Below, piece by piece: positions 13,824 through 23,106 of a DNA stretch of 50,440 nt. Source of the stretch: Bacilli bacterium (GTDB taxonomy: Bacteria; Bacillota_I; Bacilli_A; RF39; UBA660). The first letter of the stretch is position 1; each line of letters opens with the position of its first letter. The notes below the pieces were generated by a model. The model was not told the origin of the DNA. It did not search any database and saw nothing but the letters and a program-made list of their open reading frames with translations. Made by a program: the position numbers and the translations under genes. The DNA lies in contig JAFURK010000022.1 of NCBI GenBank assembly GCA_017480975.1, positions 1-50,440 of the forward strand. Reading direction: 5' to 3'.

Positions 13824-15044
13824 ATGGATATATTAGAGTTTTTAAGAATTAAAAAAAGTAAGAAAGTAATTGAAAGGGATGAATATAATTTAGGACAAAA
13901 GATAGAGGATTTTTTAGATTGGTATTTAAATAATATAGTGGAATTTACTCATTTAACTGATTGGGCTAAGGATGAAGAAAAAAATAAGATTAGGTATTTT
14001 ATTGAAAAGATGGCAGTTTGGTATGAACTTAGATATCCTGATTATGAGATTGATAAGTTATTAAGTGGTGATTATTGGGAACAAGATGTTAATGAAGTTA
14101 TGTTTCGTAATAATGAGCTTTTGAAAGATGTAGTAGAAGATAATGAAATGTTGGAATTATTAAATTGGAATGAATTTTATAGTACTAATGCTTTTGTTAG
14201 GTCTTTGCCTGTATATGAAAGAGAATATTTGAAGAAGCCTAGGTATCCTAAGAATATGCATATAAATTATCAATCACCTGAATTTAAGTTTTCTTCATAT
14301 CGAAGTTTAAGTTTATGTATTGATAATGAGGGGAAGGTTAAAAATGATGATAGAAGATATCTTTCATTTGATACAACGTTATACATAGGTAATAATGAAT
14401 TTAATCTTGTTGGAATGCATATTAAAGATGTATTAAAATTGTTAAAAGATAATGGTTTGAAACCTTGGACTGGTTCTATTTATGAAGTTGAGACAATTAT
14501 TCAAAATTATGAGAATGATAAGTATTTTAAAGAAGAATTATTGAATTGTATATTGTATCGTATAATTTTAAGAGGAAGACAAGGATATGGGGCTAAAAGA
14601 GGATATTTGTTTGCTAAAGAGTTTGCTCTTAATTTAGATATTCCAATGATTTATGGTATGGATAATAGTATTAGGGGAATTAAAGAATTATATAATACTT
14701 ATTTGAAAGATAATGGTAATAAAGATTTGATGGGAATAGTTGATTACTTTTTAGAAGATAAGGAAAATCCAAGACAAATGATGAGGGTTGAAGATTTTGT
14801 AAAGAGTGTAAATTATTGGACTGATGAAGAACAGGAATTAGGACAAAGATTAGTTAATCTTTTGAGTATAAGAAGAGATATGTTGGATTCTAGTTTTTTA
14901 GAAAGAGAAAAGTTTAAGGAAGAGCAAGTTAGGGAATTAGCTAAAAGAGAGAAAATAGAGCAACAAAGGTTGCAAAGAAGATTAGCTAGGGTAAAAAGAA
15001 ATGAAGAGATAAGAGCAAAAAATAGGTTGAAGATGAATAAGTGA
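13824..15044 (+). CDS. Protein of unknown family with a charged coiled-coil C-terminus
   Basis: 406 residues, cytosolic, with no signal peptide or membrane segment. The first 130 residues are helical, acidic and rich in Trp and Tyr; the middle (about 150-340) looks alpha/beta with LYIGNNEFNLVGMHIKDVL; the last 60 residues are a basic coiled coil with repeated EKxxQQRLQRR-like patterns. No catalytic motif is recognisable. GATGAGGTAATG gives the ribosome binding site, and a TATAAT at 13794-13799 is the likely -10. A terminator follows, so it is a single-gene unit beside other single-gene units of accessory character. Confidence 0.75.
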   Translation: MDILEFLRIKKSKKVIERDEYNLGQKIEDFLDWYLNNIVEFTHLTDWAKDEEKNKIRYFIEKMAVWYELRYPDYEIDKLLSGDYWEQDVNEVMFRNNELLKDVVEDNEMLELLNWNEFYSTNAFVRSLPVYEREYLKKPRYPKNMHINYQSPEFKFSSYRSLSLCIDNEGKVKNDDRRYLSFDTTLYIGNNEFNLVGMHIKDVLKLLKDNGLKPWTGSIYEVETIIQNYENDKYFKEELLNCILYRIILRGRQGYGAKRGYLFAKEFALNLDIPMIYGMDNSIRGIKELYNTYLKDNGNKDLMGIVDYFLEDKENPRQMMRVEDFVKSVNYWTDEEQELGQRLVNLLSIRRDMLDSSFLEREKFKEEQVRELAKREKIEQQRLQRRLARVKRNEEIRAKNRLKMNK

Positions 15045-18437: not shown

Positions 18438-20087
18438 ATGGGTGATAAGTGGTTAAAAATTTTACATTATATTGAAAATTATCGTGAATGTTATAAGAGT
18501 AAAGATTTAGATTATTATCAAATATTTGAACTTTCTAAAGAAATGGTTTCTAGTGATATTGCTAAAGCTATAAAAGATAATAGATTTACAGTTTTATTTC
18601 ATCCTGATTTAGAAAAGTATATTCCTAAAGATTATCAGACTGATTTTAAAATTTTAACAGAATTAGTTCGTGATATGGAGAATACACTTTGTAATAGTGT
18701 TAATAAGGAACGATACGATAAAAAATTGACAGAAGAATGGCAAAAGAAATGGGAATTGATTTTACATTATATTAATAATTATCGACATTGTTATGCAAAT
18801 AGAGATTTAGATTATTATAAAATATTTGAGTTACCTAGAAATGAAACGGCTGAAGAAATTACTAAGTTGTTAGAGGAAAATAGTATAAAAGCGCTATTTA
18901 ATCCTAAATATAAGGAAAAAGTTCCTATTAATTATCAAAATACTTTTCTTAATTTAACTAACTTATTTTTAGAGATGGAGAAGACTTTATGTAATAAAGA
19001 AAAGAAAGAATGGTATGATTCTAGAATGAAGAAAAAGTGGTTAGGAAATTTTGAAGAGGTATTACATTATATTGATAATTATCGACGATGTAAAAATAAT
19101 TATGATTTAGATTATTATAATATCTTTGAACTTCCTAGAGATAGAAAAGCTGATGAGATATCTAGGATATTATCGATGAGAAAATTTACAATTTTATTTA
19201 ATACTGATTATATGGAATATGTACCTAAGGATTATCAAATTGATTTTATGAATATGGTTGGTTTTGTTTCTGATATGGAAAATAAGCTTTGTAATGAAGA
19301 GAGTAAGAAACAATATGACGCTAAGCTTGAAAAAAGAAAAAAAAGAAAGGAAGCAGTTCGAGAAGCTAATAATAGTAAGAAAAAGGAAATTGAAATAATT
19401 GGTGGTGTTATTAATAGTAAAGGGGTTGTTGTGTCTAATTATAATGATTTTATTGATAATCGAGATAAAAGAGATATTGATATAATAGTTAGTGAAAATA
19501 TAAAAAAATATGGTTTTCAGTTTACTTTTGACGCTATTGGTAATTTTATATTTGAAGAAAATTCTAAAGGGTTTACGAGGGATAATAATATTCGAGAAAA
19601 AATTGATAAAATTGGTAAACAAAAATTACAGTACTTTTTAAGAATTTATAGTGATGATAAACAATTTTCTCGAGATGATTTGAGTACTATTATATATTAT
19701 TTTAATGATTTAGTGTTAAGGGATAAGCAATTAAAAAATAAAATGCAAATATTTGAACAGGCTAGTATAGCTACAATATCTACTAATGATATTTATGGTT
19801 ATGAAACTTTAGTTGGTGCTGTAAGGAAATTTATTGAACAGAAAGATTATGGTATTTTTTCGGCTAATTTAAGGCAAAAATTACATGAGATGGTTAATCA
19901 TCGTGATGGTAAGATCTTGGTACAAATGTATTTATCTAGTTATCGTTTTGATGATTTTAGGTATAATTATAAAAATTTAGAGAAATTATCTGATGAAGAG
20001 TTGGCTAATGAATTTAGTGATTTTTTAAGTCAACAAATTATTGCTAATGAGGTTAAGACTTCTAGGAAATCTAGTAGGGCTGGGTGA
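18438..20087 (+). CDS. Protein with three 100-residue J-domain-like repeats and an unknown C-terminal domain
   Basis: 549 residues. Residues 1-300 are three tandem repeats in exact 100-residue register: ILHYI at 8, 108 and 208; DLDYYxIFEL at 23, 123 and 223; YQ near 66, 166 and 266; ME then TLCN/KLCN near 80, 180 and 280; YD at 93, 193 and 293. Each reads like a degenerate DnaJ domain: the DYYxIFEL opening, a helix II ending in an LF-HPD-like site, and a terminal YD. Only repeat 1 keeps HPD (55-57), the Hsp70-activating triplet; repeats 2 and 3 have NPK and NTD. A basic linker (about 296-317) leads to a roughly 230-residue alpha-rich domain I do not recognise. No membrane segment. ATG 18438 follows ATAGGAGG. 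The gene lies between two terminated units. Confidence 0.8.
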   Translation: MGDKWLKILHYIENYRECYKSKDLDYYQIFELSKEMVSSDIAKAIKDNRFTVLFHPDLEKYIPKDYQTDFKILTELVRDMENTLCNSVNKERYDKKLTEEWQKKWELILHYINNYRHCYANRDLDYYKIFELPRNETAEEITKLLEENSIKALFNPKYKEKVPINYQNTFLNLTNLFLEMEKTLCNKEKKEWYDSRMKKKWLGNFEEVLHYIDNYRRCKNNYDLDYYNIFELPRDRKADEISRILSMRKFTILFNTDYMEYVPKDYQIDFMNMVGFVSDMENKLCNEESKKQYDAKLEKRKKRKEAVREANNSKKKEIEIIGGVINSKGVVVSNYNDFIDNRDKRDIDIIVSENIKKYGFQFTFDAIGNFIFEENSKGFTRDNNIREKIDKIGKQKLQYFLRIYSDDKQFSRDDLSTIIYYFNDLVLRDKQLKNKMQIFEQASIATISTNDIYGYETLVGAVRKFIEQKDYGIFSANLRQKLHEMVNHRDGKILVQMYLSSYRFDDFRYNYKNLEKLSDEELANEFSDFLSQQIIANEVKTSRKSSRAG

Positions 20088-21346: not shown

Positions 21347-21772
21347 ATGGCAATGATTCCAAGAATGATGCCAAATAAAATTTATTTAGATGATGTATTT
21401 GATGATTTTTTCTTTCCAACGACTAAAGAAAATAATTTTGGAAAAATGAGATGTGATATCTACGAAAAGGATAATACTTATTATTTAGAAATGGATATTC
21501 CAGGATTTACTAAAGAAGATATTAATATTGAGATTGATGATAATGATTATTTAACTATTACAGCAGAAAAGAATGTTGAAAATACAGAAGAAGATGAAAA
21601 TAAGAATTATATTCGTAAAGAGAGAAATTATGGTAAATATCAAAGATCTTTTTATATAGGTGGTATTGATAAAGAGAGAATAGACGCTAATTTTGAAAAT
21701 GGAATCTTAAATATCATAATGCCTAAAAAGGAAGAAGAAAAATCATCAAAACAAACAATAGAAATTAAATAA
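21347..21772 (+). CDS. Small heat shock protein (Hsp20/alpha-crystallin)
   Basis: 141 residues, typical length. An N-terminal arm (RMMPNKIYLDDVFDDFF) leads into an alpha-crystallin domain from about residue 36 (CDIYEKDNTYYLEMDIPGF) and the conserved FENGILNIIMPK near 121-132. It acts as an ATP-independent holdase for unfolding proteins in the cytosol. A very strong promoter with a CIRCE-like operator points to HrcA-controlled heat induction. GAAAGGGAT precedes ATG 21347. The acidic ENTEEDENKN insert is unremarkable. Confidence 0.94.
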   Translation: MAMIPRMMPNKIYLDDVFDDFFFPTTKENNFGKMRCDIYEKDNTYYLEMDIPGFTKEDINIEIDDNDYLTITAEKNVENTEEDENKNYIRKERNYGKYQRSFYIGGIDKERIDANFENGILNIIMPKKEEEKSSKQTIEIK

Positions 21773-21969: not shown

Positions 21970-23106
21970 ATGTACAAAGCTTATAAATTTAGACTATATC
22001 CAAATCAAGAACAAAAAGTACTTATTAATAAAAATTTTGATTTGTAAAGATTTGTCTATAATTACTATTTAACTTATATTAAAGAACATAAATATTTGAA
22101 TGCTAAGGCTTATATAAGTCATTATGTAAATTATTTAAAACAAGAATATCCTTTTTTAACCGAGGCTGATAGCATTATAATTAGGAAAACTTTATTTAAT
22201 CTAGAAGATGCCTTTAAAAGATATTTTAACAAACAAGGCGGTTATCCCAATTATAAAAATAAATTTTCTAAAAATTCATATAATACAAGCGCTGTTTATA
22301 GAAAATATAAAACAAAAGAATATTGCAATATTGAAATTGATTTAAAGAATAAACAAATAAAATTACCTAAACTAAAATGGGTAAATATTAAAGGATATCG
22401 TAATTTAAAAGAAAAGAATGGAAGAATTATCAATGCTACCATTTCAAGAGAACCAAACGGCAAATACTATGTCTCTGTAGTATTTGAAATACCATCTATA
22501 TCTAATAATTATGTAATACCTAAAAATATTATTGGTCTTGATTTAGGAATAAAGAAGCTAATAACATTATCAGATGGTACAATAGTTGATAATAATAAAT
22601 ATATTTTAAAATATGAAAAAAGAATTAAAAGACTACAAAAAAGTCTTGCTAGAAAAGTTAAAAAAAGTAAAAATTATTATAAATGTAAACATCAATTAGC
22701 AATTTTATATGGAAAATTAAAAAATGCTAGGAACTATTATTTGCATAAAATCACCAAACAAATAACTGATAATAATGACATTATAGTAACCGAAAAATTA
22801 AATACTAAAAATATGTTACAAAATAATAAACTATCCAAAAACATTCAAGACGCTTCATTTTATGAAATTATTAGACAATTACAATATAAAGCTAAAAATA
22901 AAGGTAAATATTTTCATCAAATAGATACCTATTATCCATCAACTCAGACTTGTAGTGTATGCGGAAATATCGATGCAAAATATAAAAATTTAAATGAAAG
23001 GGTATATAAGTGTTGTAATTGTAATAATCGAATGGATAGAGATTTAAATGCCAGTATAAATATAATGTTTGAAGGATTAAAAATACATTTTAATAATTTT
23101 GCCTAA
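21970..23106 (+). pseudogene. tnpB: TnpB RNA-guided nuclease, interrupted by a nonsense codon
   Basis: The reading frame starts MYKAYKFRLYPNQEQKVLIN, the standard TnpB opening, but TAA at 22045-22047 replaces one codon in the conserved FGCxRFVYNYYL segment (here FDL-stop-RFVYNYYL). The rest is intact: RuvC residues in IGLDLGIKKL, VTEKLNTKN and DRDLNASINI, plus the zinc ribbon CSVCG and CCNCN. Codon count (378 before the final stop) is normal. TnpB cuts DNA guided by an omega-RNA from its own element's 3' end. A restart at TTG 22096 would lose 42 residues and has no good ribosome binding site. The protein is probably inactive unless readthrough occurs. Confidence 0.85.

Follow-up and report, generated by a model that had tools for sequence, protein, structure and literature searches.

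A Bacilli protein with three tandem J-domain-related units, of which one retains HPD, and a C-terminal pair of putative IreB/ReoM-like units

The window, meaning the whole stretch of 50,440 nucleotides that was analyzed (contig JAFURK010000022.1 of assembly GCA_017480975.1), derives from a gut bacterium of the Bacilli, represented by a metagenome-assembled genome (MAG) that is 59% complete. Positions 18438–20087 of its plus strand hold an open reading frame (ORF) of 549 amino acids with an ATG start, closely preceded on the 5' side by a strong ribosome-binding site (AGGAGG). The encoded protein comprises three J-type units of 100 residues each, a charged linker (residues 301–349, 19338–19484), modeled partly with low confidence (AF2 pLDDT <50 at residues 311–336 of the full-protein model), and a C-terminal pair of predicted IreB/ReoM-like units. 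Unit 1 (residues 1–100, 18438–18737) consists of a leading helix and a J domain with an intact HPD motif (residues 55–57, 18600–18608), whereas unit 2 (residues 101–200, 18738–19037) and unit 3 (residues 201–300, 19038–19337) are degenerate, with HPD replaced in the translation by NPK (residues 155–157, 18900–18908) and NTD (residues 255–257, 19200–19208), respectively. Two genes downstream lies a gene encoding an Hsp20 small heat-shock protein (21347–21772), a proximity that may be due to chance. The window also encodes an IS605-type TnpB (OrfB, with a Cas12f1-like TNB domain; 22096–23106), with no TnpA among the scanned neighbors, and, two genes upstream of an ABC-F gene, a Pfam-negative protein of 406 amino acids (13824–15044).

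The first-pass annotation had described residues 1–300 as repeating in a perfect 100-residue register, and the gapless pairwise alignments of the three units confirm this, with 44, 44, and 47 identities per 100 residues (44–47%) and BLOSUM62 z-scores of 14.6–15.9 against 2000 shuffles. When the whole protein was compared with itself, 103 residues were identical at offset 100 (best period-unrelated offset, 49). The DLDYYxIFEL motif and the terminal YD do recur in units 1, 2, and 3, aromatic positions are conserved across all of them, and HPD is indeed confined to the first. The earlier wording requires one correction: each 100-residue unit is a J domain of ~70 residues with a helix of ~17–20 residues ahead of it. 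The nucleotide sequences of the units share only 63–64% identity, which points to an old duplication and rules out an assembly artefact as the source of the repeats.

Profile comparisons indicate that the repeats are J-domain-related, in agreement with the ancestry first proposed for them. The Pfam DnaJ model (PF00226) matched the whole protein over two stretches (E 6.7e-7, 29.8 bits, cut-off 27.8), and in a six-frame search the match fell under the Pfam cut-off. Taken singly, units 1 (E 6e-4, 20.3 bits) and 2 (E 1.3e-3, 19.2 bits) matched this model below the cut-off, while unit 3 gave no match. In hhalign comparisons, unit 1 reached a probability of 61% against DnaJ, and a unit-family profile (the three window units and four relatives) reached 97.2% (P 4.6e-11) against canonical DnaJ J domains of the same bacteria, compared with 0.3% against IreB as a control. 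Solved J domains likewise topped the list when the PDB was searched by sequence with the family profiles (E down to 1.4e-6). The HPD motif makes contact with the linker and R167 of DnaK; wherever its H or D has been changed, stimulation of Hsp70 was lost (PMC8215388). The J domain of this family carries two additional residues between the start of helix II and HPD, which makes even unit 1 atypical. Neither a G/F-rich linker nor the C-terminal client domains of DnaJ were found, and Pfam and NCBIfam detect the J part only; the protein is thus assigned by exclusion to class C rather than to the class A/B DnaJ proteins.

The first AF2 model, of the full protein, was based on an alignment of 5 rows (pTM 0.38), too shallow to be usable for the J units; HscB was a weak Foldseek match to it (E 9.1). 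A model of unit 3 plus the tail, based on 23 alignment rows, had a mean pLDDT of 89.7, and its unit 3 block (pLDDT 83–97) contains helices 38–48/50–53 and 64–84, in an order that fits a J domain. No DnaJ structure appeared among the best 50 Foldseek matches listed for this model, and the helix II/III hairpin expected by the first-pass annotation is therefore supported by the predicted helix order but not by these structural matches.

Used as the sole query, the window protein retrieved few relatives, and nothing from the genome, viral, phage, and plasmid collections. Profile searches, in contrast, retrieved single-J homologs of 315–361 amino acids from nine further genomes within this Bacilli family (G012, G156, G256, G257, G372, G461, G294, G105, and G137). 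The family combining a single J domain with an IreB-like tail comprises L004–L007, L014–L017, and L053, with tails that can be aligned along their length, and L014 and L053 are nearest to the window protein. HPD is kept in 8 of the 10 single-J proteins (the exceptions being L017 with HDD and L039 with HSD), which suggests that J activity is ancestral. L039 (4363–5160 of G294:C5) is a second J-type paralog in its genome and has no IreB-like tail, and L053 (G461:C32) is interrupted by one in-frame TAG, reflecting either a pseudogene or a sequencing error. L008 (G011) was rejected as a chance match on the strand opposite to the open frames there, and of the matches that the profile search of 386 genomes gave with E 1e-4 to 1e-8, most were ordinary DnaJ proteins or J-proteins of other kinds. 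No triple form turned up in the six congeners or in the other genomes searched from the family, order, and class, and no further two-J ORF was present in the 11 multi-match genomes checked ORF by ORF; this form is thus known from one 59%-complete MAG among the seven genomes of the genus. By these sequence comparisons, the window protein is a triplicated version of the single-J family with an IreB-like tail.

The J-unit tree agrees with this reading. The three window units form one clade (100/99) adjoining L014/L053 (87/90). Within it, unit 2 pairs with unit 3 (94/85), and the branch of the HPD-bearing unit 1, at 0.28, is the shortest (0.63 and 0.59 for units 2 and 3). These relationships fit a lineage-specific triplication after which constraint on the copies lacking HPD was relaxed or altered, and they bear out the old duplication under length constraint that had been suggested at the outset. 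The added copies appear to have lost the Hsp70-activating motif.

The C-terminal region, which the first-pass annotation had called unrecognized, is instead best read as an IreB/ReoM-like pair (hhalign probability 93–96%, controls ≤9%; Foldseek). Here a unit of ~57 residues occurs twice, with the pattern KYG..A...I..G....FTN..N.R..L...I..IL, the first at residues 350–405 (19485–19652; KYG..AI..FI..GFTRDNNIREKI) and the second at residues 445–499 (19770–19934; YGYETLVGAVRKFI..FSANLRQKL), detected by a unit HMM (iE 7e-16 and 1e-12, respectively) and supported by the hhalign comparison between the unit family and IreB. No Pfam model covers these units: PF06135 gives no match in the window protein and a weak one (E 0.0064) only in a single J-less relative. 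A profile of all tail units aligned with 17 IreB/ReoM proteins of related bacteria at an hhalign probability of 95.5% (score 39.8), compared with at most 3.6% (score ≤14.9) in 100 column shuffles, 8.9% (score 17.0) for the reversed profile, and 0.5% against DnaJ. The J-family tail units alone reached 92.7% and those of J-less proteins alone 91.8%, while the two window units taken alone remained below significance. The tail units share with IreB the motif GD..(F/Y)(T/I)..NNAR..I at the matching place, at a low identity of 16–20%, and searching the PDB by sequence gave ReoM (6tif_B) as a weak match (E 0.14). In Foldseek searches with the model of unit 3 plus the tail, CcpS (probability 0.87, TM 0.65, rmsd 2.4), ReoM (0.72), and IreB (0.60) were the only high-probability matches among those listed, and the earlier shallow model also matched all three; as the E-values exceed 1, this structural match is supporting rather than decisive. 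The profile and model comparisons together argue for a remote homology of the two tail units with the IreB/ReoM/CcpS fold; the N-terminal phosphothreonine of IreB/ReoM has no place in these units, and no such stretch precedes them.

Within the single-J family, the unit HMM detected both tail units singly in G012, G156, G256, G372, and the split homolog of G461. A single unit was detected in G294, G105, and G137; G257, whose tail diverges most, gave none. The IreB-like unit also occurs in up to three copies in J-less proteins of 186–603 amino acids from the same bacteria. Those of ~450–603 amino acids with two or three units (L056, L058–L060, L062–L064, L066, L068, L071, and L075) share a conserved, Pfam-negative N-terminal domain ahead of the units (FCQFVN..IKIYIP.D..HI...LF.FL...NI.H.SKIG), an arrangement recurrent in this Bacilli family. 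The IreB-like units of L056 (757–2121) match weakly (E ~5e-4) the phage families phrog_29437 and phrog_31380. For the window protein itself, a defense or phage role was rejected, given no PADLOC or PHROG match.

DnaK and canonical DnaJ were not found in the 59%-complete window assembly; both are present in congeners, from which the partner is assumed. Free IreB/ReoM (PF06135) is absent from all seven genomes that represent the genus (G000 and six others) but present in 22 of 33 sampled relatives outside it. PASTA-domain proteins are kept in the genus, including one of 659 amino acids in the window genome. No conserved operon partner of the J-protein genes was seen when neighbors were read by eye, and these vary by genus (lactate dehydrogenase, a glutamate racemase-like protein, a GTPase, an HD-domain protein).

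We propose that the product is probably a cytosolic class C J-protein in which unit 1 triggers DnaK, units 2 and 3 are dead scaffold or self-regulatory modules, and the tail holds a client. By sequence, it descends from a protein in which two IreB/ReoM-like helical units stood behind a single J domain, the J unit having been tandemly triplicated in this lineage with its exact length kept. Unit 1, through HPD, would dock on ATP-bound DnaK and induce ATP hydrolysis; units 2 and 3 would be unable to stimulate DnaK and might provide a rigid spacer or platform; alternatively, they might pack on unit 1 and regulate it as J-like modules, in the way of Pam16 with Pam18 but here in a single chain. The IreB/ReoM-like pair would bind a client or partner and aim DnaK at it, in the manner proposed for ReoM, which may direct MurA to the ClpCP protease. 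ReoM controls the degradation of MurA via ClpCP, and an adaptor-like role has been proposed for it (PMC7286690), while IreB inhibits MurAB through direct binding (PMC12077105). By analogy, this family of J-proteins could do for chaperones what the ReoM adaptor does for ClpCP, with specific clients of the tandem units handed to DnaK instead and, in the window lineage, units 2 and 3 regulating unit 1 in cis. As the genus lacks free IreB, the fusion might also take over part of the IreB role, although we regard this fuller version as rather doubtful.

A simpler history, in which units 2 and 3 are drifting, roleless remnants of tandem duplication and the protein works like its single-J relatives, would agree with the triple form being confined, among all genomes searched, to one of the seven from the genus, and with the roughly twofold faster evolution of these units. 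The ORF is nevertheless intact, and both units have kept exactly 100 residues without an indel, 44–47% identity, and their aromatic positions, which argues for a folding constraint over a long time; we consider such drift unlikely, if still the strongest of the competing accounts. The atypical J domain of the family, with two residues inserted in the region of helix II, and the loss of HPD in 2 of 10 single-J relatives would suit a protein that has become a structural scaffold, its link to DnaK lost and its J units reduced to helical protein-binding modules. The retention of HPD in the other eight and in the slowest-evolving unit 1 makes this the least credible account, and a quite improbable one.

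For the tail, the likeness to IreB/ReoM might reflect convergence of small helical bundles and be functionally uninformative, as the 16–20% identity, the Foldseek E-values above 1, and the lack of significance of single units would allow. Set against this are the profile-profile score of 39.8, well beyond the shuffled (≤14.9) and reversed (17.0) controls, the co-located GD..(F/Y)(T/I)..NNAR..I pattern, and the fact that sequence and structure led separately to the same likeness, so that we judge convergence improbable. The class C reading with a client-holding tail remains the one we favor.

Beyond the first-pass annotation, this analysis offers an identity for the C-terminal domain and recovers the single-J family from which the protein derives. 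To our knowledge, J domains and IreB/ReoM-like modules have not been known to meet; the link, if true, joins two quality-control and regulation modules of the Firmicutes. The recurrence of IreB-like units in J-less proteins offers a way into the IreB fold as a possible general module for client binding, and the loss of HPD from units 2 and 3 within one chain would provide a natural test of J-domain use without Hsp70 stimulation.

In the literature searched, tandem J units in one chain were found in one Leishmania protein and in none from bacteria. That protein, J14, has two J domains in one chain (PMC9141911) and differs from the window protein in being eukaryotic and in having two units, with no IreB-like tail described. 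Bacterial class C J-proteins of the DjlA/HscB type similarly join a J domain bearing HPD to an unrelated client-choosing domain, but the window protein has three tandem J units, two of them lacking HPD, a helix II region longer by two residues, and an IreB-like tail. Its single-J relatives share the leading helix, J domain, and tail, but have one J unit, usually with HPD. IreB/ReoM/CcpS proteins (PF06135, UPF0297) resemble the tail units in predicted fold and in the GD..(F/Y)..NNAR-type motif; IreB, however, is a free homodimer of ~90-residue chains with N-terminal phosphothreonines, whereas the tail has two tandem units behind the J units, no N-terminal Thr stretch, and falls below Pfam recognition. 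In IreB/ReoM, the N-terminal Thr is phosphorylated by a PASTA kinase. A further analogy for the J units is mitochondrial Pam16/Pam18, in which the J-like Pam16 acts as regulator of the J protein Pam18: there too a module without HPD is paired with one that has it, but on two separate chains rather than within one.
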